DNA of 20,971 bases from IMG/VR virus record IMGVR_UViG_3300020197_003163, positions 1-20,971 of that record. The stretch is one strand, 5' to 3'. Source of the DNA: a virus. How positions within the stretch are numbered: position 1 is the first letter of the stretch; each line of letters opens with the position of its first letter. The position numbers were made by a program, and so were the translations under genes. Shown here piece after piece: positions 4,549 through 18,110 of the stretch. The notes beneath the pieces were generated by a model, which did no database searches, was not told the DNA's origin, and saw only the letters and a list, made by a program, of their open reading frames with translations.

Positions 4549-5553
4549 ATGGCATTAGGTTTTGACGCAGGTACATATAACCTTGTCTGTTGCAGCAGAG
4601 ACGACAAAGGCAATTTTGCGAACAAGCGAGAAGTAAATGCCTTTTTAGAGCTTCCTCTTGAAAATCGCTTTGTTTTTAATATGATGAAAAATGCTGGTGT
4701 TCCGCTTATTGAGCGTGAAAACGTCGCTTATGCCCTTGGCGAAGCTGCTGTCAATATGGCTTATACAATGAGCCAACTGGAACTCAAGCGACCTATGGCT
4801 CATGGATGCGTTAATCCCAAGGAAAAAGACGCTTTCCAAATCCTGAGCATTATGGTTCACAGCCTATTAGATGATGTAAAACAAGACAACGAAACACTCT
4901 ATTACTGTATACCGGCCAATGCCATTAACGAAGATACGGATGCCGACTACCACCAAAAGGTGTTAGAAGCCATCTTCAAGGCTTACAAGTCCGACAAGGG
5001 CTTTAAAGTAAATGCCAATCCAATCAACGAGGCATTGGCTCTGGTTTATGCCGAGTTAGGCAAAAAGGCATACACAGGTATTGGTATCAGCTTTGGTGCC
5101 GGTATGGTAAACATCTGCTATGCAATGTATGGAACGCCAGTATTCACCTTCGCCATTGTGAATAGCGGCGACTGGATTGACAAGCAGGCTGCGAAAGCAA
5201 CTGGTGAGACACCAACTTTCATCAACAAAGAAAAAACTAAGATTGACTTATCTAAACCACCAACCAACTTGGTAGAACGTGCAATACAAACTCAATATCG
5301 ACTAATGATTGAACATACTATCGCTGGTATCAAGAAGGGTTTGGCCGATGCGAACAAAGCTGTTCATACCGAAGCCCCTGTTGACATAGTGATAGCGGGA
5401 GGAACATCTTCTCCCTATGGTTTTGCAACATTGTTTAAAGATACACTGGTGCAAGCAAACTTATCAATTAAAGTGGGAGAAGTCGTAAAACCAAACGATC
5501 CACTTTATAGCGTAGCTCGTGGTTGCTTAATTGCCGCAGAAGCTGCGAAATAG
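4549..5553 (+). CDS. Actin-like ATPase (ParM/MreB/Hsp70 superfold)
   Basis: The 334-aa protein carries the actin-superfamily nucleotide motifs in order: phosphate-1 GFDAGTYNLV (residues 4-13), a connect-1-like INEALALVYAEL (159-170), phosphate-2 GISFGAGMVN (179-188), the adenosine motif VIAGGTSSPYG (281-291) and a connect-2-like SVARGCLIAA (321-330). The length is close to ParM (about 320 aa), so both lobes are complete. Such proteins bind ATP and often form filaments that segregate plasmids or position replicating phage DNA in the cytoplasm; that role here is inferred. A strong AAGGAG precedes ATG 4549 at ideal spacing. It could also be a non-filament-forming relative. No obvious ParR-like DNA-binding partner or centromere repeat array is visible next to it. 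Confidence 0.8.
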   Translation: MALGFDAGTYNLVCCSRDDKGNFANKREVNAFLELPLENRFVFNMMKNAGVPLIERENVAYALGEAAVNMAYTMSQLELKRPMAHGCVNPKEKDAFQILSIMVHSLLDDVKQDNETLYYCIPANAINEDTDADYHQKVLEAIFKAYKSDKGFKVNANPINEALALVYAELGKKAYTGIGISFGAGMVNICYAMYGTPVFTFAIVNSGDWIDKQAAKATGETPTFINKEKTKIDLSKPPTNLVERAIQTQYRLMIEHTIAGIKKGLADANKAVHTEAPVDIVIAGGTSSPYGFATLFKDTLVQANLSIKVGEVVKPNDPLYSVARGCLIAAEAAK

Positions 5554-6097: not shown

Positions 6098-6131
6098 TTT
6101 TGCCGTGACTATATATGGCAAGGAGAATGCC

Positions 6132-8249
6132 ATGCAAATAATTAAAGACACTGCTTTGGACCAGAAAATTCAAGCCCTTTTGGACCGAATTCCACAAGAA
6201 GTGGATAAGATGATTGGGCAGTTGAAATCTTCTCTCATTAACCCCATGACACGCCCACAGGCTAGACGTGGGCTATGGGACAGATTTAAGAACACCATGT
6301 CCAATTTGTGGTGGGGAAGGTATAATCAAGATAATCCCTATTTCTGGAACAACAAACTTGGTGACGATCTGGGACAAGTCCACCCAGAACACGTCATGCT
6401 GCGCACTATTCCTATAGAGGAATATCGTCTTTTTCGTGAACATTGCAGACTGCTAGAAACTCAGCTTGATACTCTGCTTGAAGACACAATTCCGGGCACC
6501 GAAAATCTCGCAATAATTCGGCTCATCAATCAGTGGGGCGAGCAACTTAAAACAATGCTCGTCAAAACTGTAAAAGATCATATTTATGGTGCTGGCGGTT
6601 CTGCTCCTGCAACACCAGCGGCAACGCCACCGGCCCCAGCGCCAAAGCCAAAACGAAAGCCTGCTGATGAACCAGTTTGGGATGGAAAAGACCCAGAGGG
6701 TGCCCGCAAGGGAGCCGAGGAAATGGCCAAGCAAATGAAAGTGAGTGGCATTATTGATGAAGAAGAATATCAGCAAATTCTTGGTTTTGCAAAAACCAAT
6801 CCTGAATTAGCCCTCAAGAGAATTAAAGAAATTCAAAAGAGAAAAAGCACAGGAGATGAGGTTGCTGATTCTAAACAACAACTAAGAGACAGATTAGGCG
6901 CTTTAGCCCCCTTCATTGAAGACGAAGAATACAACAAAATCAAAGAGTTAATTGACAATGACGATTTGGAACAAGCAGAAACCAAGATAGCAAAGTTTGA
7001 ATCTGAGAAGCGAGAACCCACCGAAGATGGTGGAATAGATGCCAAGCGTGCGACAGCAATGGAAGACCTCGATAAAGCCAAAGAAAGAGGATTGCCAAGC
7101 GACAAATATGAAGCCTACAAAAAGTACATTACTAGTGCTACAGACCCGGACACCCTTGATCGTATAGTGGGTGACCTGAATCGTACAGCCGTAATTGACG
7201 ATGAATCGCCCCCAGAAAGCGGCACAGTCCCACCGGAAGAAGATGGCGAAGCAGGACCAAGTTATTCATCATATTGGGATAAAAAACCTAATACTGGTGA
7301 TCGTGCATGGGATAATTTAAGCCCAAGTGAAAAAGCGGCTTGGAATAACTACGGTGGTGGGCACGAAAGAAGAATTGCCAAAAAAGGACTTAAAGGCTTA
7401 TTCCTCCCGTGGATATTGAGGCTTGGTGATCCTCGTACTAAACTTCTTTACAATAGGGATCGTCACCATGTTTGGAATGAACTTAGACGGGAAGAAAGAA
7501 TCGAACTTGATAGTGATCCAATAAAAGACCGTCAAGATTTTGAACAAAGAATCGAAAGAGCTAAAAAATTACGACAAGAATATGTTACAAAATTGTCCCG
7601 TAGCCGCAAATCTAGAGTAGAAATAGAAAGAGATAAGCTGGCAGACGGTGCGGGCGAGACTCGTACAGAACCCGTGGCAGACGATGCGGGCGAGACTCGT
7701 ACAGAACCCGTGACTCCAAGTAGGACAACAGAAATTCCAGACGATTCTATGCCGCCAAATACACCAAAAGATCAAGATGGCGACAAGGGAAGCATCGGCA
7801 AAAGACCTGGCGGACCATATCGTACAAGCATGTTAGACGATGATAAAGTTAGCCCACATGACGCCAATGATGTTAGCCCACATGACGCCAATGATGTTAG
7901 CCCACATGACGCCAATGATGTTAGCCCACATGACGCCAATGATGTTAGCCCACATGACGCCAATGATGTTAGCCCACATGACGCCTTAGAGCAAATTGGC
8001 AAAGCAAGAGAAGAAGGAATTATTGACGATGAAACAATGGAAAAACTGACAGATATGGTAATGAACGACAAAATCAAAGATGCCATTACAGACCTTACAC
8101 GATTGCGATATAGACACGGAATAGAAGATGACGACGAAATAGAAACTTGGGCGAAGATGCTCGATTGGGTTGCCCCTCGCAATGTTCTCCGTGAAAAGGT
8201 AGAATACTATAAGAAACTCCTTAGAGAAGGCAGTAAATGTGTTCGATAA
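6132..8249 (+). CDS. Large modular repeat protein, unknown function (705 aa)
   Basis: Modules in order: a Trp-rich N-terminus (residues 45-75); a Pro/Ala linker (157-177); three related helical hairpins of about 45 residues (190-236, 247-292, 304-351), each with a SHOCT-like helix, G-[IL]-[IP]-x-[DS]-[EK]-x-[YE] turn and helix; a basic Trp-containing middle domain (380-495); two 12-residue repeats (504-527); six VSPHDA(ND) repeats (573-618); and a fourth hairpin (619-661) with GIIDDETMEKL. ATG 6132 is chosen over GTG 6105 because AAGGAG lies 6 bases upstream. The 3' end overlaps glmS by 13 bp. Linkers joining repeated hairpins suggest a scaffold or virion-internal protein, but I assign no function. 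Confidence 0.75.
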   Translation: MQIIKDTALDQKIQALLDRIPQEVDKMIGQLKSSLINPMTRPQARRGLWDRFKNTMSNLWWGRYNQDNPYFWNNKLGDDLGQVHPEHVMLRTIPIEEYRLFREHCRLLETQLDTLLEDTIPGTENLAIIRLINQWGEQLKTMLVKTVKDHIYGAGGSAPATPAATPPAPAPKPKRKPADEPVWDGKDPEGARKGAEEMAKQMKVSGIIDEEEYQQILGFAKTNPELALKRIKEIQKRKSTGDEVADSKQQLRDRLGALAPFIEDEEYNKIKELIDNDDLEQAETKIAKFESEKREPTEDGGIDAKRATAMEDLDKAKERGLPSDKYEAYKKYITSATDPDTLDRIVGDLNRTAVIDDESPPESGTVPPEEDGEAGPSYSSYWDKKPNTGDRAWDNLSPSEKAAWNNYGGGHERRIAKKGLKGLFLPWILRLGDPRTKLLYNRDRHHVWNELRREERIELDSDPIKDRQDFEQRIERAKKLRQEYVTKLSRSRKSRVEIERDKLADGAGETRTEPVADDAGETRTEPVTPSRTTEIPDDSMPPNTPKDQDGDKGSIGKRPGGPYRTSMLDDDKVSPHDANDVSPHDANDVSPHDANDVSPHDANDVSPHDANDVSPHDALEQIGKAREEGIIDDETMEKLTDMVMNDKIKDAITDLTRLRYRHGIEDDDEIETWAKMLDWVAPRNVLREKVEYYKKLLREGSKCVR
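7641..7712 (+). repeat. Two 36-bp in-frame repeats
   Basis: Two adjacent copies (7641-7676 and 7677-7712), almost identical, encode ADGAGETRTEPV and ADDAGETRTEPV within the 705-aa protein. Confidence 0.9.
7848..7985 (+). repeat. Six 24-bp in-frame repeats
   Basis: Copies start at 7848, 7872, 7896, 7920, 7944 and 7968; the last is 18 bp. They appear identical at base level and encode VSPHDAND, forming a hydrophilic linker before the last helical hairpin of the 705-aa protein. Base-level identity points to recent slippage or recombination, so copy number may vary between relatives. Confidence 0.95.
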
Positions 8250-9994
8250 TTGGTTGCTCTTTTCAGAGCGATGTAGCTCCTACTATCGTGCGTGGACTTC
8301 AAAAAATGGAGTACCGTGGTTACGATAGTGTTGGAGCTTGTACATTTGATAAACAACTGAATCTTGCACGAGGCGTGGGTAAAGTGCAAGATGTTAATCG
8401 GAAACAAAATCTTGATAAACTGCCCGGTAATGTGGGAATTGGCCATACTCGCTGGGCAACTCATGGGGAAATAAGTGAAAGCAATGCTCATCCTCATGTT
8501 GACACTTTGCTTGGCAAGATTGCTATCGTTCACAACGGGATTATAGAAAATCACGAAGAATTAAAATCTGAATTTGGGTTTGCCCACAATAGCGATACCG
8601 ACAGTGAAATAATTGCCAATCTTTTGGCACATTTATATGTCAAAAGACAAGACCCAAAGAAAGCAGTCCTTGAAGTCGTAAAGCACTTAAAGGGACATTA
8701 TGCTTTTTTGGCCATATTTGACGACGAAACGCTGGTGGCAGTAAGAAACCATGAACCAATTATTGTGGGTCTAGCTCCACTAGGATACATCGTAGCAAGT
8801 GATGTATTGGGATTCATTGAAAACACAAATCAAGCCATTTACCTTGAAAACAAAGAGTTTGCCGTAATAGAACCGCCCAAAGTTCGAGGAATGACAATTT
8901 ACAACTTTGAAGGCAAAGAAGTAAAACACAAGACGGTAGAACTCTCAAGGGAAGTGGCCGATGCTTACAAAGAAGACTACGCCCACTTTACCATCAAAGA
9001 AATTCACGAGCAAATTCATACGGTCAAAAAGATTCAATGCAATACGCCGGAATGCAACACCTTCGATGCTGCCAGAATGCTTTGTGCAGCCAAAAACATA
9101 TATTTCACGGGCAGTGGTACAAGCTATAATGCTTGTTTGATAGGCAAATATCTTCTGAATAAACATAAGATAAAAGTAGAGCCTATCATTTCAAGTGAAT
9201 GCCCATTTTTGAATCACGACTTCGATGAAAAGTCTGTGTTATTGGCAATATCGCAAAGTGGTGAAAGTGCCGATGTATTAGAAACGGTTTTGATGGCAAA
9301 ACATAACGGGGCCAAAATCATCGCCGTTGTCAACAAAACAGCTTCAACTTTGGCAGGCATTTCGGACTTGGTGTTACCAATCAATTGTGGTCCTGAGATT
9401 GGCGTTGCTGCAACCAAAAGTTTTACATCACAAATTCTCTTATTGGCAGGAATTGCTTCCCACATTCAGTTTAGCGACATAAATTTTGGGGCTATATCAA
9501 ATTTAGTCAAACAATCTCTCAGGCAAGAAAACAAGGTTAAGGCAATTGCCTACGAAATCAAAGATGTAAGCGACATTTACATTCTGGGTCGAGGAATACA
9601 CCACCCAATTGCGTCCGAGGCTTCTTTGAAAATAAAAGAACTTGCTTATATCCATGCAGAAGGTTTGGCGGGCGGCGAATTAAAGCATGGCCCACTAGCT
9701 CTCATTGACGAAAGTTCCTATGTGATTCTGCTACATCCAAGTGATGAAACTTATTCAGACATGGAAATCAGTGGGAGGCAAGTCAAAAGTCGGGGAGCCA
9801 AAATCATCGGAATTGCCGAGAAGTACAATTATTTGTACGATCATTGGATAGAAGTGCCAGCAGGCAGCACAGAAATAGAAAGAATTGTATCAGAAATTAT
9901 TCCAATACAACTCTTGGCTTACTACATTGCTTTGGCAAAGAATTATGATCCAGATTATCCCAGAAATCTTGCCAAGTCGGTCACAACCAAATAA
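8237..9994 (+). CDS. glmS: Glutamine--fructose-6-phosphate aminotransferase (isomerizing)
   Basis: GlmS converts fructose-6-phosphate and glutamine to glucosamine-6-phosphate and glutamate, the first step to UDP-GlcNAc. All 585 residues are present (E. coli about 609). The class-II glutaminase domain starts MCSIIGC with Cys2 as N-terminal nucleophile and includes GHTRWATHG and HNGIIENH. Two SIS sugar-isomerase domains follow, with GSGTSYNA, SQSGESADVLE and GVAATKSFTSQ, then GRGIHHPIASEASLKIKEL and EGLAGGELKHGPLALI, ending in the characteristic PRNLAKSVT tail. No key residue seems missing, so the enzyme is probably active. It is the last gene of the plus-strand run, overlaps the 705-aa gene by 13 bp, and its TAA directly abuts the stop of convergent glpX, which supplies its substrate. 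It is unusual for a phage, though chlorella virus PBCV-1 has an equivalent enzyme. Confidence 0.97.
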   Translation: MCSIIGCSFQSDVAPTIVRGLQKMEYRGYDSVGACTFDKQLNLARGVGKVQDVNRKQNLDKLPGNVGIGHTRWATHGEISESNAHPHVDTLLGKIAIVHNGIIENHEELKSEFGFAHNSDTDSEIIANLLAHLYVKRQDPKKAVLEVVKHLKGHYAFLAIFDDETLVAVRNHEPIIVGLAPLGYIVASDVLGFIENTNQAIYLENKEFAVIEPPKVRGMTIYNFEGKEVKHKTVELSREVADAYKEDYAHFTIKEIHEQIHTVKKIQCNTPECNTFDAARMLCAAKNIYFTGSGTSYNACLIGKYLLNKHKIKVEPIISSECPFLNHDFDEKSVLLAISQSGESADVLETVLMAKHNGAKIIAVVNKTASTLAGISDLVLPINCGPEIGVAATKSFTSQILLLAGIASHIQFSDINFGAISNLVKQSLRQENKVKAIAYEIKDVSDIYILGRGIHHPIASEASLKIKELAYIHAEGLAGGELKHGPLALIDESSYVILLHPSDETYSDMEISGRQVKSRGAKIIGIAEKYNYLYDHWIEVPAGSTEIERIVSEIIPIQLLAYYIALAKNYDPDYPRNLAKSVTTK

Positions 9995-10930
9995 TCAGTT
10001 GCCATGATTCGTTGTGAGCCATCGAACAGTTCTGCTTTCAGAACGCATAAACACACTATTTGTTACTGGCCCCCGTGTAGTCCAACGCACGCCCTTCAAT
10101 AAACTTCCGTCTGTAATCCCGGTTGCTGCAAAAGCACATGGGCCTTGAACAAGTTGATCCTGATTCATTTCTGGGCCAAATAGATTCTGATTCCAAAGTT
10201 GTGCAAGGAAGAAACCGCCAAGACATTTCATGGCTGCTGCTGTTATTGCCGCTTCGGGGGCACCACCTACGCCAAATTGCATATCAATGCCGCCATCTGG
10301 TAGACAGGTCGCAATAGCTCCACTTATATCACAGTCTTGAATCAATTTCATTCGCACACCCAAGTCACGCATTTGTTTAATCCACAATTCGTGACGTGAA
10401 CGATTGAGAATACAAACCATCAATTTGTCAACAGGCTTATTAAGAGCATCTGCTACAAAATTACAAATGTCTGGAAGAGGCATAGAAAAGTTCAATTGTC
10501 GGGCTTTCCACGGTGGAATAATGGGGCCAACAGCCAACTTGAGCATATAATGCTCTTCCGTATCAAACATTGAGTCCTTTTCAGAAATAGCAATTACGCT
10601 TGTGGCTTCCGGGCCAGAAGTTACCGTGGGAGTTGTGCCGTCAATAGGATCAACACCAATATCGTAAATTTTGGGCGGGGAAGATAGATGGTGAAAATAT
10701 TCGGCAGGAAGATTCCCCACTTCTTCGCCTTTAAAAAGACCATAACTTTGGTCCTTTTTGCCTTCGCCAATACGGATTACACCTTTGAAATCCATGTTGT
10801 TTAGGCGTCTTCGCATAGAATCAGTGGCATCTCTATCGGCCAAGAGCTTATTGCCGCTTCCTACCCAAGCAGAAGCGGCAATAGCAGCACCTTCTGTGAC
10901 ACGAACCAAATCTAAACCAATATGCTTCAT
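9995..10930 (-). CDS. glpX: Class II fructose-1,6-bisphosphatase
   Basis: GlpX hydrolyses fructose-1,6-bisphosphate to fructose-6-phosphate in a metal-dependent reaction. The 311-aa sequence follows E. coli GlpX (336 aa) throughout: LVRVTEGAAIAA near the N-terminus, LLADRDATDSMR with Asp32, RIGEGKKDQ with Glu56, the metal motif VDPIDGTT with Asp94 and Asp97 (E. coli has Glu at the latter), CDISGAIATCLPD, VGGAPEAAITAAA with Glu226, and ATGITDG near the C-terminus. It is shorter mainly between the GGAPE block and ATGITDG. AAGGA precedes the ATG. It is the last gene of the minus-strand operon, 9 bp after the Gly-Lys-tract membrane protein, and converges on glmS with no spacer. A sedoheptulose-bisphosphatase side activity is possible, as in some class II enzymes. 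Confidence 0.94.
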   Translation of the reverse strand: MKHIGLDLVRVTEGAAIAASAWVGSGNKLLADRDATDSMRRRLNNMDFKGVIRIGEGKKDQSYGLFKGEEVGNLPAEYFHHLSSPPKIYDIGVDPIDGTTPTVTSGPEATSVIAISEKDSMFDTEEHYMLKLAVGPIIPPWKARQLNFSMPLPDICNFVADALNKPVDKLMVCILNRSRHELWIKQMRDLGVRMKLIQDCDISGAIATCLPDGGIDMQFGVGGAPEAAITAAAMKCLGGFFLAQLWNQNLFGPEMNQDQLVQGPCAFAATGITDGSLLKGVRWTTRGPVTNSVFMRSESRTVRWLTTNHGN

Positions 10931-10939
10931 ATTGCTTCC

Positions 10940-11578
10940 TTATTTGTCTGGGAACTTTGGAGGGGGCAACTCATAGAACATAAAATCTTGTTCCTGACTC
11001 ATTGAGCCGCCATTGCTGTTGCCTTCTTTGCCTTTGCCTTTGCCTTTGCCTTTGCCTTTGCCTTTGCCTTTGCCTTTGCCGTTATCCTCACCATCGCCTT
11101 CGCCACTTAAATTATTGCGTTGGCCAACAACGGGCTTTCCAGCTTTCATCATTTTTGAAACCTGAGCCAATTGTTCTTTCATTTTCTCTGAGTAAGGCAA
11201 ACGATAAGCTCTGGGTTCTGAGGGACGCTTCTTGGAAACAAAAGGCGATAACCAAGAAGAAACTTCTGTTTTCTTGGCCCTGAAATCATTGTCCAACTCT
11301 GTAGTCCAAATGTAAATATTTCCTTTGTCTCTTGAGTCAGTCAACGAGGGTTCTTGAACAGCGATCCCATTGATTAAAAATATTTCAGGCATCTCGGAAT
11401 TGCTGGGCCAGCCGCTAAGTTGACTAAGCGACAACCATACCGCAAGACTAAAGTAAATACAAAGGCTCGTGAAGATAATTTTAAGAACCCACCAACCTTT
11501 TGCAAAGATTAGTAGCCACAAGCCAATTGCTGCGAGCAAAATGAAGGCAATAGGAATACCGATAGCATTAAAGTCCAT
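10940..11578 (-). CDS. Two-TM membrane protein with Gly-Lys tract
   Basis: This 212-aa protein starts with two hydrophobic segments (about residues 6-25 and 31-52), then a soluble region of about 160 residues. The soluble part has an acidic GEGDGED stretch, nine consecutive Gly-Lys pairs (about residues 166-183), and a short tail FMFYELPPPKFPDK. I know no family for it. Its position 2 bp after the ExbD-like gene and 9 bp before glpX, on the same strand, suggests a third subunit or regulator of the ExbB/ExbD-like complex. The basic tract could contact phospholipid head groups, nucleic acid or acidic partners; this is speculation. Confidence 0.65.
   Translation of the reverse strand: MDFNAIGIPIAFILLAAIGLWLLIFAKGWWVLKIIFTSLCIYFSLAVWLSLSQLSGWPSNSEMPEIFLINGIAVQEPSLTDSRDKGNIYIWTTELDNDFRAKKTEVSSWLSPFVSKKRPSEPRAYRLPYSEKMKEQLAQVSKMMKAGKPVVGQRNNLSGEGDGEDNGKGKGKGKGKGKGKGKGKEGNSNGGSMSQEQDFMFYELPPPKFPDK
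11027..11080 (-). repeat. Nine 6-bp tandem repeats (GGCAAA)
   Basis: On the minus strand nine exact GGCAAA units encode nine Gly-Lys pairs in the two-TM protein. The unit is a multiple of three, so copy-number change alters tract length without a frameshift. Confidence 0.95.
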
Positions 11579-11580
11579 TG

Positions 11581-12270
11581 TTACTCATCCTCTGGTGGAA
11601 TATTTGGATCGAAATTTATGGGATTTTCGGGATTACCGTTCCCCAAATCGGGATCGACAGGGAGGTTTTGCCCCTGAGCGGCATTAGCCAAAGGCTTATA
11701 ATAGAAGGAAGTCGATGTGACTTCGCCTTTGTCATTAACCACAAATCTGAATCCCGTCTTTTCTTCCCCGTTATTCACAAGGATTACTTTATTTTGAACA
11801 ATAGGGGTATAGGCAGGAGATATTTTGTCGAGTTGAATTGTGACTTCGATAGGCTTTAAGTTTGCCGGGTCATTCCTTCTATACAGATGGACGTTAACGA
11901 CGTATTCTCCCCGTGATGTGCCTCTCAAAGTAACTATTTCTCGATTTTCTTTGTATTCAATTCTTCCGAATTGAGTATTCACTATGTCATTTCTTTTACC
12001 AAGATCGTCTCGGTCTAAGTGCATTAGGCCGTCTTCACGTCTTTGGAAAAACACCAATTTGTTATCGGGGGCCAAAACGTATGTGTCAACATCATCGTCA
12101 AATTCTTCACCCCAAGTGACGGTGATGATATACGCACCTTTTACGTCCGGCGTTTTCTTGTTTTGGTTCATCAGGGCGAAAGCCAAAACGAAGAGAGCGG
12201 TAAAAGCAATTAACGTATTAAAAAGCAAGTCCAAGAAAGACGTATTACAGCTATAACTCCTAGTTCTCAT
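11581..12270 (-). CDS. ExbD/TolR-like membrane protein with YfaP/DUF2135-like domain
   Basis: The 229-aa protein has one N-terminal membrane helix (about residues 15-34) starting NTSFLDLLFNTL. Asp14 sits where ExbD/TolR/MotB proteins hold the proton-carrying Asp (the F-x-D-x-x-x-x-L-L pattern). Instead of the usual ExbD domain, residues 46-150 form a beta-rich region, ITVTWGEEFDDDVDTYVLAPDN through GEYVVNVHLYRR, resembling the YfaP/DUF2135 fold (T-W-G, D-V-D-x-x-V-x-x-P-D, G-x-Y-x-V). The C-terminus is Pro/Asn-rich and acidic. It overlaps the ExbB-like gene by 11 bp, implying coupled translation and a 1:1 complex. The membrane-helix assignment is fairly secure; the C-terminal fold is from pattern memory. 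Confidence 0.7.
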   Translation of the reverse strand: MRTRSYSCNTSFLDLLFNTLIAFTALFVLAFALMNQNKKTPDVKGAYIITVTWGEEFDDDVDTYVLAPDNKLVFFQRREDGLMHLDRDDLGKRNDIVNTQFGRIEYKENREIVTLRGTSRGEYVVNVHLYRRNDPANLKPIEVTIQLDKISPAYTPIVQNKVILVNNGEEKTGFRFVVNDKGEVTSTSFYYKPLANAAQGQNLPVDPDLGNGNPENPINFDPNIPPEDE

Positions 12271-12937
12271 TTTTCACCTGTGAATTTTCGGATTCCGAAT
12301 ATAATGCTTTCAGGGCCACTTCTTCTGCAAGGATCGCCAATTCTTTTTCTTCGCTCAAAAGAGTTCCCTTGAAAATCTCAGCCTCTGTTTTTTGCGGATT
12401 TTCCGAAATGAGGGATGGAGAAGAAACCAAAGTATTCTTCTTTGGTTTACCAATTCTTTGAAGCTCCAAACTCAAAATGAAGTATTGTATTTTCAGCAAA
12501 ACACCGCAGACAAGACCTACCAAAGTGGTGTACAGGGCCGTAGACATGCTCTTGCCAAGATCAGACAATAGTGATTGAACGGTTTGCGGCTTGTTCATAT
12601 CAATGCCTTCAAACCCTGAAAGCATGAATATGAATCCGACAATCGTTCCAATCATGCCTAGAGTCAAACAGAATTCACTAAAGAACCAGCCCACTTCTTC
12701 CTGACGCAGATAGTCTTCAAAAGATGCTTTATCTTTGGGTGGTGACGCACACACACGAAGTATGTAACCCCCACAAAGAAGGGAGAAAAAAACAAAAATG
12801 CCAAGAATTGCCCAGCTTAAATAACTACTGTCCTTTTTCCAAAGTACGGCATAAAAGCCAGCGTATTGAACAAATATTGCGGCGACACATATCACCGTAA
12901 AAAAAAGCCACCATTTAAGAAAAGGGACATATTTCAT
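12260..12937 (-). CDS. MotA/TolQ/ExbB-family proton channel protein
   Basis: The 225-aa protein has four predicted membrane segments (about residues 9-30, 40-62, 90-108 and 130-155). The family signature lies in the last two: LGMIGTIVGFIFMLSGF (93-109) and LGKSMSTALYTTLVGLVCGV (127-146), matching the ExbB/TolQ L-G-L-L-G-T-V-x-G-M and A-L-x-T-T-x-x-G-L patterns. ExbB-type pentamers surround two ExbD-type helices and couple proton flow to mechanical work. The partner gene follows with an 11-bp overlap. A cytoplasmic helical tail (about 180-225) extends past the channel core but is far shorter than the tail of the Zorya protein ZorA. AAGGA precedes the ATG with 7-base spacing. Confidence 0.85.
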   Translation of the reverse strand: MKYVPFLKWWLFFTVICVAAIFVQYAGFYAVLWKKDSSYLSWAILGIFVFFSLLCGGYILRVCASPPKDKASFEDYLRQEEVGWFFSEFCLTLGMIGTIVGFIFMLSGFEGIDMNKPQTVQSLLSDLGKSMSTALYTTLVGLVCGVLLKIQYFILSLELQRIGKPKKNTLVSSPSLISENPQKTEAEIFKGTLLSEEKELAILAEEVALKALYSESENSQVKNEN

Positions 12938-15280: not shown

Positions 15281-16189
15281 TTAACGACCGGGTAAAAGAA
15301 TATATTCCTCTGAGTAAGTGCCTTGAGAGCCATTACGGTCAACAATAGGCAATTCTCTAGCGGCGGAACCACCCGGAGGAATATTCAGCAAAAAATTGTA
15401 GCCGTTTTTCGAGAATACTCTGTGAATAGCACTTAAAGGCGTAAAATATCCTTTGCCGGTGCCGCTATAACTTTCAGTGCCCCAGCATGTGGCGATGTAA
15501 TATTGATCGTCCATTAAACCGCCGCCAGAACGACCCGGACGAGGGCTGTTTCTGAAGGTAATTAAATCGTTATTTTGGATACCAATGATTTCAACATCAT
15601 AATGAGCCACTTCTCTTCCGCCGTCACAACCGCAAGAGTGTACACGTTGGCCGTTTTTATATTTGTAGTTTTTAGGGGCAATTGGAAAATAAGTTGGAAC
15701 CCAATCAGGCTGGAATGTGACTAAAGCTGAGTCGGCACCACTAACATTGCTGTAAAAGATTACTTTGGCGTTATAAACCTTGGTAGATTTGAGTTTTTTC
15801 TCGTTTTGATACCATATGACAATCTTACAAGTTAAATTACGAAGCTTGCCTTCTTCAGCCGACATTATTCCTTCATCCCATAAATGGCCGCAAGTTGCTA
15901 CATATGCTGTGTTAGAGGAAGAGTTGTAATAAACGATTGTGCCTGAGCCTGAAGCGTTAGATACTGAAATCTTGACAGAGGACGACAGCCACTTTCTATA
16001 AGCCTCTCCTCTTTGTTCAATAGGAGGTTCGCTTGACTTGTGTAAAGTCCGGCTTCCCTTAACAAGAGGCATATTATCGAATGAGTGAATACGCTCGATT
16101 GGCGGCGATAGGCGGTCTGGAGATTTATCTTGAACTCCCAAAAAACCCAGACATAGAATTAAGGACAGGGCTGGTAGAAATCTTTTCAC
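15281..16189 (-). CDS. Secreted trypsin-like serine protease
   Basis: The 302-aa protein has a signal peptide (MKRFLPALSLILCLGFLG), a linker of about 45 residues, then a chymotrypsin/HtrA-type domain. The triad is His102 in VATCGHLWD, Asp153 in SGADSALVTF and Ser221 in PGRSGGGLMD. SGSGTIVYY (80-88) is the first strand of the barrel. No PDZ domain is present. The start is the GTG at 16187-16189, preceded by AAAGGAG at 5-base spacing; the longer reading from ATG 16231 adds 14 residues in front of the signal and lacks a ribosome site. Export suggests a target in the periplasm, at the cell surface or in the virion. It converges on the Fe-S nuclease gene, with an ATGATCGATCAT palindrome at 15266-15277 between them. 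Confidence 0.85.
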   Translation of the reverse strand: MKRFLPALSLILCLGFLGVQDKSPDRLSPPIERIHSFDNMPLVKGSRTLHKSSEPPIEQRGEAYRKWLSSSVKISVSNASGSGTIVYYNSSSNTAYVATCGHLWDEGIMSAEEGKLRNLTCKIVIWYQNEKKLKSTKVYNAKVIFYSNVSGADSALVTFQPDWVPTYFPIAPKNYKYKNGQRVHSCGCDGGREVAHYDVEIIGIQNNDLITFRNSPRPGRSGGGLMDDQYYIATCWGTESYSGTGKGYFTPLSAIHRVFSKNGYNFLLNIPPGGSAARELPIVDRNGSQGTYSEEYILLPGR

Positions 16190-16229
16190 GACCACTCCTT
16201 TAATATATAATCTATATAGGTTCCATCCC

Positions 16230-16286
16230 ATGTTAACTCTTACAATTAGTCAAAATATATTTTCATGGTCCAATCTTTTGATATAA
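16230..16286 (+). pseudogene. Duplicated 5' fragment of the 133-aa gene
   Basis: ATG 16230 opens an 18-residue frame starting MLTLTISQNIF, nearly matching the MLTLTISHNIF start of the gene at 16306, then diverging to SWSNLLI and a TAA. It is a leftover of the direct duplication. Translation as a leader peptide is possible but unsupported. Confidence 0.5.
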
Positions 16287-16716: not shown

Positions 16717-17250
16717 TTATGGAAGTGGACAATCCCTCAAAGTCATAGCCATTTTAACATTGATAGCATCGCCGCTATCTAGGTAGGCTTCTTCGGATAG
16801 CGAAACACTTGATATTAAAACTCCATCGTTATTATTCTGAGTTGTCAAGAACAACGTCGATACTGGCCCCCAAGAACCACCGGCAGCACTAAAGGTCACA
16901 ATTGAACCAAGAGCTTTGCTGTATCCTTCATTGGCAGTAATATACCATCCGGTAGGTTGATCTGGCTTAGAACTTACGGCTTGTCTGAAATAACCATTTG
17001 AATTAGGTTCATCCAAAAGAGAAGTCATTGTATCAGAAATATCTAATGAGATTCTAGCATCCAATCCTAAGTAGTAAAATTGGGGAGGTATGCTTCCGTC
17101 GCCGGGGTTTCTGAAAAGCGCCTTTAAGAAATACGCTTCGCCTTCTGCATGGAGAGTATTGTAGAGGTTTTTCTTGGACCAAAGAACCTTACCATTGCGG
17201 ACTTGTTCTATTTCCAAAACCTTCATTATGCCATTCCAATCTTTACGCAT
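16717..17250 (-). CDS. Probable phage structural protein, unknown family (177 aa)
   Basis: The protein is beta-rich and Gly/Ser/Asn-rich, with segments such as FYYLGLDARISLDIS (58-72) and VTFSAAGGSWGPVSTLFLTT (118-137). It reads like a phage tail- or capsid-associated beta-sandwich, but I cannot name a family. The start is ATG 17250: AGGAG lies 6 bases before it, inside the 2H gene, and the start overlaps the end of that gene by 8 bp (ATGCGTAA). An internal ATG at 17226 is possible, since the domain-like sequence begins there. It is the last gene of the terminase-side minus-strand cluster. Confidence 0.6.
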   Translation of the reverse strand: MRKDWNGIMKVLEIEQVRNGKVLWSKKNLYNTLHAEGEAYFLKALFRNPGDGSIPPQFYYLGLDARISLDISDTMTSLLDEPNSNGYFRQAVSSKPDQPTGWYITANEGYSKALGSIVTFSAAGGSWGPVSTLFLTTQNNNDGVLISSVSLSEEAYLDSGDAINVKMAMTLRDCPLP

Positions 17251-17809
17251 TGCTTGCTCCTAATTTAATTTCGTGTTTCGTGCCATCTTTAGAAGAGAAT
17301 ATCAGGTTATTTATTTGGAATTTTTCACCATTAAATTCTTCAAGCCCTTTGTATGTTCCGCCTTTGTTTTTGTTTAAATAGGCTATTGTCACATGCGGGA
17401 TATATTTTGGGTATGTCTGGACAACATCTAAGTTCTTAGTTAAGATGGAATTGATGTAATGTAGATCGGGACTATCAACATCTATTTTCAAAACATCAAA
17501 TACGTCGTTAGAAAATAAAGACATTTTGCCAAGCCGCACTGTGAATGGTTTGATATTTTTCAACAAATCAACAACAATTGTTTTATATCTGTCTAAAATC
17601 CCGTAAAGTACGGTTATGTGAATGTTGTCTTCACGACCGAACGACGGCCTGTCTGGATTAGAAAACACATATTTCTCAGGTATGTTGTCATATCCCCAAG
17701 AAATAATTTCATCAGCAAGTCTATCTGGCACATTAAGTTGGACAGAAGAATAATCTCTCTTTATTTTGCCGCTTTCAACCAAAAAGTGCCTGAATATCTT
17801 CGTCTCCAT
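17243..17809 (-). CDS. 2H phosphoesterase (LigT/CPDase-like)
   Basis: The 188-aa protein has the two H-x-[TS] motifs that define the 2H superfamily: NIHITVLYG (His64, Thr66) and IPHVTIAYL (His139, Thr141), about 75 residues apart, each followed by a hydrophobic strand. The family opens cyclic phosphates or 2'-5'/3'-5' bonds in RNA or cyclic nucleotides; some phage members (Acb1) cleave the CBASS second messenger. Substrate here is unknown. ATG 17809 is preferred over ATG 17860 because the longer form adds 17 basic residues read from the preceding gene's coding sequence; neither has a strong ribosome site. It overlaps the 112-aa gene by 35 bp and the 177-aa gene by 8 bp. Confidence 0.82.
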   Translation of the reverse strand: METKIFRHFLVESGKIKRDYSSVQLNVPDRLADEIISWGYDNIPEKYVFSNPDRPSFGREDNIHITVLYGILDRYKTIVVDLLKNIKPFTVRLGKMSLFSNDVFDVLKIDVDSPDLHYINSILTKNLDVVQTYPKYIPHVTIAYLNKNKGGTYKGLEEFNGEKFQINNLIFSSKDGTKHEIKLGASNA

Positions 17810-18110
17810 CTTTAGGTTCTTTCTTTTTTCGGTATTCTTCGAGTCGCAACTTTTCGGCACCTATCATGGCATCCAATTGAGAAATTACTTTCTTGGCAAT
17901 CTCTGGATGCATCAATTCGTTATTGACCATGACCCAATTATTGCCGGTTGTTTGTTGTGCTTCTCGATTGGCACGTTTGGCTTCCACCGATTCAAGTTTG
18001 CTCAAAGCGGTTTTAAGGTGAAATCGCACGTCACTTAGGGCGAAATCGTTTGGTAAATTCTTTATAGCGTTGACCAGATATTCTTTGGATTCATTTGTGT
18101 TATTTTTCAT
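17775..18110 (-). CDS. Hypothetical 111-aa helical protein
   Basis: The protein is mostly helical and charged, with a central helix of Lys/Glu/Arg around residues 33-55 and an acidic-basic C-terminus (KKKEPKDGDEDIQALFG). I do not recognise a family. Two ATGs are adjacent (18113 and 18110); the second fits the TAGG ribosome site better. The start overlaps the stop of the 311-aa gene by about a dozen bases, and its 3' end overlaps the 2H gene, so the cluster is translationally coupled. Position after the terminase is compatible with a head or packaging accessory, but nothing in the sequence shows it. Confidence 0.6.
   Translation of the reverse strand: MKNNTNESKEYLVNAIKNLPNDFALSDVRFHLKTALSKLESVEAKRANREAQQTTGNNWVMVNNELMHPEIAKKVISQLDAMIGAEKLRLEEYRKKKEPKDGDEDIQALFG

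Follow-up and report, generated by a model that had tools for sequence, protein, structure and literature searches.

The window, that is, the whole stretch of DNA analyzed here, corresponds to a viral record in IMG/VR with a length of 20,971 bp. On its minus strand lie three consecutive genes, herein named A, B, and C, together with two further genes that recur in the discussion below.

12260..12937, minus strand: gene A, a 225-aa channel subunit of the MotA/TolQ/ExbB family by its Pfam match (MotA_ExbB, 7e-8)
11581..12270, minus strand: gene B, 229 aa, with one predicted transmembrane (TM) helix and a predicted periplasmic β-sandwich (conservation, AlphaFold model)
10940..11578, minus strand: gene C, 212 aa, with two predicted TMs and a predicted periplasmic domain (98/98 non-redundant viral loci, topology, AlphaFold model of the homologue L107)
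9995..10930, minus strand: glpX-type fructose-1,6-bisphosphatase (Pfam FBPase_glpX, 8e-90)
15281..16231, minus strand: trypsin-like peptidase with an N-terminal hydrophobic segment (Pfam Trypsin_2, 1.9e-7)

Gene A (12937-12260) and gene B (12270-11581) share positions 12260-12270 and, thus, overlap by 11 bp, as described in an earlier sequence-only reading of this DNA. That reading overlooked gene C (11578-10940), which starts 2 bp past the end of B. The glpX gene follows 9 bp downstream of C, an order that is kept in close relatives (L009, L010); it is probably cotranscribed with the trio in the lineage of the window and lies outside the conserved unit. A glmS-like aminotransferase gene with GATase and SIS domains (8237-9994, plus strand) converges with glpX and touches it, which places two genes for the supply of sugar phosphates next to an envelope cassette. 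Trypsin-like genes are found near A-B-C in several separate phage lineages (L002, L004, L005, L006, L012, L045, L149, and L242), and the peptidase of the window may act with the trio as an envelope or maturation protease. Elsewhere in the window, an actin-like gene of the Volactin family (4549-5553, plus strand; 2.8e-72) recurs in relatives of this phage, and a 714-aa ORF (6105-8249, plus strand) for a large low-complexity protein contains tandem repeats coding for VSPHDAND at 7700-7900. A 2'-5' RNA ligase-like gene (17243-17860, minus strand) with a weak match to the anti-CBASS protein Acb1 (1.1e-4, under the cut-off) is a candidate counterdefense gene. No recognizable hydrolase, spanin, or other lysis gene is present in the 20,971 bp of the window, and in its lineage, none adjoins the trio.

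The A protein matches the Pfam family MotA_ExbB (PF01618) at 7e-8, scoring 32.7 bits where the cut-off is 22.9, and the family is detected in 94 of 95 A homologues (E ≤ 0.01). Hydropathy yields four membrane segments for the window protein, one of them long and called twice, in agreement with the four-TM protein of TolQ/ExbB type first described. TM3 carries the motif GxxGTxxG (Gly94, Gly97, Thr98, and Gly101) and TM4 the motif TTLxGL (Thr138 and Gly141). Asp36, Gly94, Gly97, Thr138, and Gly141 are invariant in an alignment of 95 rows; in a set of 73 sequences, Thr138 and Gly141 are conserved to 100% and Thr98 to 95%. A profile of A searched against the PDB, a comparison with MotA and TolQ that the sequence-only reading had suggested, finds MotA (8gqy, 3.4e-5) as best match and TolQ (8odt, 5.2e-5), followed by weaker matches to PomA, ExbB, and ZorA; these alignments span the last two membrane helices. 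By its profile matches and conserved residues, A is a member of the MotA/TolQ/ExbB channel family, and the proposal of a stator-type proton channel in a phage stands, with the conserved Thr and Gly of A joined by an Asp of B. The cytoplasmic loop of A is small, the C-terminal tail is short, unlike that of ZorA, and little cytoplasmic mass is left. Hence, A has neither the ZorA tail, whose absence had been noted correctly, nor the torque domain of MotA.

The B protein consists of a short N terminus, a TM helix (residues 9-36) that holds Asp14, and a β-sandwich (residues 47-188). The AlphaFold model, with a mean pLDDT of 85.7, shows this one helix followed by the β-sandwich. One TM is predicted in 74 of 76 B proteins and likewise in that of the window, where hydropathy gives one segment. 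Asp14 does not vary among 76 homologues, nor in an alignment of 90 rows, which confirms the single-TM protein with a membrane Asp that had been described. An invariant Asp14 in B and an invariant Thr138 in A are what is expected of an ion-driven 5:2 motor. Further invariant acidic positions lie in the β-sandwich (Asp60, Asp62, Asp88, Asp89, Asp95, and Glu111), and a metal site in this cluster is a guess. A Foldseek search of B against the PDB returns nonsignificant β-sandwich matches only, calcium-bound proteins among them, and its 50 best matches include neither ExbD nor TolR. The window protein matches no Pfam family; DUF2135 appears weakly in 10 of 90 B members (best 0.0039) and not in the window B, so that the predicted periplasmic domain may be called weakly DUF2135-like.

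The assignment of B to ExbD/TolR was rejected because it lacks a PF02472 profile match and has a β-sandwich in place of the small α/β domain. PF02472 is absent among the 25 families listed for 90 B members, and no ExbD, TolR, or MotB profile match was obtained. An hhalign comparison of the B profile with 19 ExbD proteins from carrier bacteria aligned 16 columns around the Asp, with a P value of 0.038 and an unconvincing probability of 1.3%. Within these columns, Asp14 of B falls on the Asp of ExbD, and the earlier placement of this residue at the ExbD proton-relay position is, thus, retained as a positional likeness. The description of an ExbB/ExbD pair holds for A as a family member; the sequence of B is not that of an ExbD, and three genes rather than two make up the unit.

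Two TMs are predicted in 65 of 74 C proteins. The AlphaFold model of the homologue L107 (pLDDT 85.9) shows two TM helices and a small α/β domain, for which Foldseek finds no significant fold match in the PDB. The loop between the helices is positive in 84 of 93 sequences, which suggests that both ends of C are periplasmic (predicted N-out/C-out). The tail consists of a Gly/Lys-rich linker and a conserved LPPPxxPxK end. C was considered as a TonB/TolA-type transducer and set aside, as it has two TMs, a small α/β domain, and no TonB domain.

When IMG/VR was scanned with the profile of B, 256 relatives were obtained; with a second scan, centered on a distant member, the loci totaled 159, or 98 once near-copies were removed. 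All three genes are encoded in 97 of these 98 non-redundant viral loci, the remaining one being truncated by its contig end, and C is found in 98/98. The recurrence of A with B, which the sequence-only reading had wished to see sought in other phages, is therefore far beyond chance. The order is A-B-C across relatives, with junctions that are mostly overlaps or gaps of a few bases, and the trio behaves as an obligate unit. PHROGs recognizes none of the three proteins. Among cultured phages, tblastn with B as query matched 26 Rhizobium and Sinorhizobium phage records, none functionally annotated, and with A as query gave no match; in all seven of the Rhizobium/Sinorhizobium loci that were read, an A-like gene lies upstream and a C-like gene downstream of B.

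A GTDB scan with 483 relatives, the best 80 of which were read, extends the system to bacteria. These 80 loci are mostly chromosomal, from Gamma-, Beta-, and Alphaproteobacteria, and 79 of them hold the whole trio. The trio is found in some hundred further phage lineages, often next to wall-cutting phage enzymes or fused to one, and on numerous bacterial chromosomes. Among the best 80 of 483, a YkuD L,D-transpeptidase lies upstream in 16, and other neighbors are a DUF302 lipoprotein (13), a VWA-FHA protein (11), and a lipoprotein of ~240 aa (12). Since each of 12 carrier genomes checked has 2-10 ordinary ExbD/TolR genes, the trio is an additional system there. A quick tree of B unites 21 bacterial rows in a single clade (SH-aLRT 99) apart from the viral rows; a few phage-looking contigs in bacterial bins and one SAR11-like group are the exceptions. 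Hence, the phage version looks old in phages rather than recently acquired. On bacterial contigs of SAR11-like and other marine Alphaproteobacteria (L165-L168), the trio stands beside SufC-like genes; the B row of L165 lies inside the viral part of the tree, which suggests phage-host transfer.

The phage relatives provide the lysis context that is missing from the window. In eight non-redundant loci (L069, L075, L091, L092, L093, L097, L098, and L100), C runs in frame into a GH24 phage lysozyme (PF00959, 8.5e-49 in L069). At the fusion junction, an ATG or GTG is kept in 8/8, after a purine-rich GAAGGAGAT or GAGGAT, so that both tethered and free endolysin may be made; the free form may be the main product of these loci. 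In another lineage (L065, L068, L134, and L137), A-B-C is preceded, in this order, by genes for a GH108 endolysin, an i-spanin, and an o-spanin. In a third (L123, L124, L126, L128, and L133), an M15 endolysin adjoins A, from which it is separated by 2 bp in L124; M15 endolysins lie within 1.2 kb of B in four contigs. A GH24 gene is found two places past C in L084. The siphophages 16-3, TM3_3_14B, and X2_25 of Rhizobium and NV1.1.1 of Sinorhizobium have an endolysin gene a few positions ahead of trypsin-A-B-C within one gene run, and in TM3_3_14B, an Rz-like spanin also belongs to the run ahead of these genes. Across 50 contigs, and with the fusion lineage and the Rhizobium phages excluded, 7 of 16 endolysin-type matches lie within 2.5 kb of B versus 1.3 expected (P about 8e-5); counted per lineage, the figures are 3 of 10 versus 0.8 (P about 0.04). 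One GH24 match in an 855-aa frame, likely a tail protein, was omitted from the count.

Endolysin linkage of the trio is not general. SleB-type hydrolases lie within 2.5 kb of it in none of five cases, several A-B-C phages have endolysin and spanins at least 14 kb away, and T4-like Rhizobium phages hold the trio among replication and transcription genes. Some carriers possess a normal spanin pair. The idea that the trio generally replaces spanins was abandoned, since such a pair is kept by several carriers and also by P10VF, for which a spanin survey gives a two-component spanin (PMC6139136). Rhizobium phage 16-3 is among the phages without identified spanins in the same survey. Two further kinds of neighbor were observed. 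ClpP-like proteases lie near the cassette (L084:7199-7834 and L069:2399-2980; one with an N-terminal TM), from a family found in 18 non-redundant loci. In large phages (L114, L116, and relatives), a ClpS-like adaptor and, by eye, a lookalike of SbmA/BacA-type peptide transporters stand two to three genes past C.

From these data, a mechanism can be proposed in which A, B, and C would together constitute an ion-driven motor in the inner membrane, of the same type as MotA/TolQ/ExbB. The channel would be built from five A subunits, and two B subunits would insert their single TM helices into it, Asp14 serving as proton relay. The β-sandwich of B and the soluble part of C would reside in the periplasm, and proton flow would move B, which would act on C and, via C, on the peptidoglycan or outer membrane. 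We infer the 5:2 behavior of A and B from the family of A and the conserved residues; proton flow and the direction of action are inferred as well. In phages, the trio may act in step with the membrane potential and position, energize, or gate a peptidoglycan hydrolase, which in one lineage is fused to C, or alternatively help to open the envelope. That the trio is a motor of the peptidoglycan or envelope, driven by the proton-motive force and in phages most likely serving lysis, is in our estimate about evenly balanced. Among the functions first suggested, lysis has gained the most support from context, through the fusions of C to endolysin and the adjacent endolysins and spanins, although the linkage is not general; it is the best supported reading and not proven. 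The copy of the window presumably acts as those of its relatives do, and its role is read from them because no lysis gene lies beside it. Bacterial chromosomes carry this system as well, so that lysis is not necessarily its basic function. We tentatively put forward a more specific reading, namely, a new class of three-component ion-driven motors in phages and Proteobacteria in which a peptidoglycan hydrolase is coupled to the flow of protons: C, either by itself or as an endolysin fusion, would in phages be held and driven or gated by the A-B channel, and attack on the wall would be powered or switched by the membrane potential.

A somewhat doubtful alternative starts from the bacterial loci. 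The chromosomal trio of many Gamma-, Beta-, and Alphaproteobacteria beside an L,D-transpeptidase, DUF302 lipoprotein, VWA-FHA protein, or lipoprotein would fit a host-type, Tol-Pal-like motor that maintains the peptidoglycan and outer membrane, the phage version of which preserves the integrity of the infected cell during host gene shut-off; the metabolic genes often present in the phage loci, e.g., glpX and glmS, agree with this. However, it leaves the C-endolysin fusion and the several endolysin classes among the neighbors unexplained, and the viral copies form an old lineage apart from the well-supported bacterial clade. It is improbable that the complex acts in superinfection exclusion or control of DNA entry by altering the inner membrane or periplasm such that a second phage cannot inject. 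Exclusion systems typically consist of small membrane and periplasmic proteins, and the T4-like relatives do hold the trio away from lysis genes; yet, the association with endolysins is not accounted for, and the exclusion proteins known to us are single, small, and have no need for a conserved proton channel. Poisoning of a host ZorAB, or of TolQR or ExbBD, by mixing in of A or B had been suggested and is now very improbable: the weak match of A to ZorA models (9.6e-6) covers just the channel helices common to both, PADLOC gives no defense family for B or C, and all lineages and bacteria keep the full trio with intact channel residues, whereas for a poison, a single subunit would suffice and a functional Asp or Thr would be dispensable. 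Scarcely credible is the nutrient uptake also suggested, a phage ExbBD powering TonB-dependent transport, for which only the family of A speaks, while B is not ExbD, C with its two TMs lacks a TonB domain, the cassette contains no TonB-like protein or receptor, and the 12 carrier bacteria checked already own ExbD/TolR genes.

If phage motors of this kind are widespread and old, an energy-using step would be added to the attack of phages on the envelope. The motor reading with a role in lysis also bears on how the outer membrane is breached by phages without recognized spanins, such as 16-3 (PMC6139136). In addition, it points to an uncharacterized envelope motor of Proteobacteria, for which Thiothrix, Comamonas, and the Rhizobium phages offer genetic entry points.

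The trio appears to be undescribed so far. Two recent surveys of 5:2 motors name those of flagella and gliding, Ton and Tol, SiiAB, and Zorya; word searches in them revealed neither a phage-encoded motor of the A-B-C kind nor a DUF2135 partner (PMC12505986, PMC12204202). In the open-access papers searched on ExbB, MotA, TolQ, ZorA, and DUF2135, no account of the A-B-C trio was found. The likeness to DUF2135 (YfaP-type) proteins lies in the periplasmic domain of B, with its weak match in some members and none in the window. To our knowledge, DUF2135 has no motor role with a TM Asp. With the phage lysis cassette of endolysin, Rz/Rz1 spanins, and SAR endolysins, the trio shares its place in an endolysin/spanin gene run in several lineages, as well as the ability of C to carry an endolysin domain as a membrane-tethered protein; unlike it, some carriers of the trio have a normal cassette elsewhere. 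We know of no lysis system that includes an ion-driven motor.

Compared with ZorAB of Zorya, the likeness is a weak match of A across the channel helices, whereas A lacks the long ZorA tail, no ZorB, ZorC, or ZorD was found, and B is unrelated by profile. MotAB and PomAB resemble the trio in the four predicted TMs of A, the best PDB profile match (MotA 8gqy), and the TM Asp of B; they differ in the large cytoplasmic torque domain and flagellar context, both absent here, and in the OmpA-like peptidoglycan-binding domain, which was not found in B. With respect to TolQRA and ExbBD-TonB, the cytoplasmic part of A is condensed relative to TolQ/ExbB, B has a periplasmic β-sandwich and no PF02472 match unlike ExbD/TolR, and C, with two TMs and a small α/β domain, is not extended as TolA/TonB are. 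The trio is, thus, not ExbBD-TonB, TolQRA, MotAB, or ZorAB, since neither B nor C conforms to the counterparts in these systems. What it has in common with TolQRA and ExbBD-TonB is the general plan: a PF01618 protein with the Thr/Gly motifs of the channel, a single-TM partner with an Asp in the matching place, and a third membrane protein that completes the unit.
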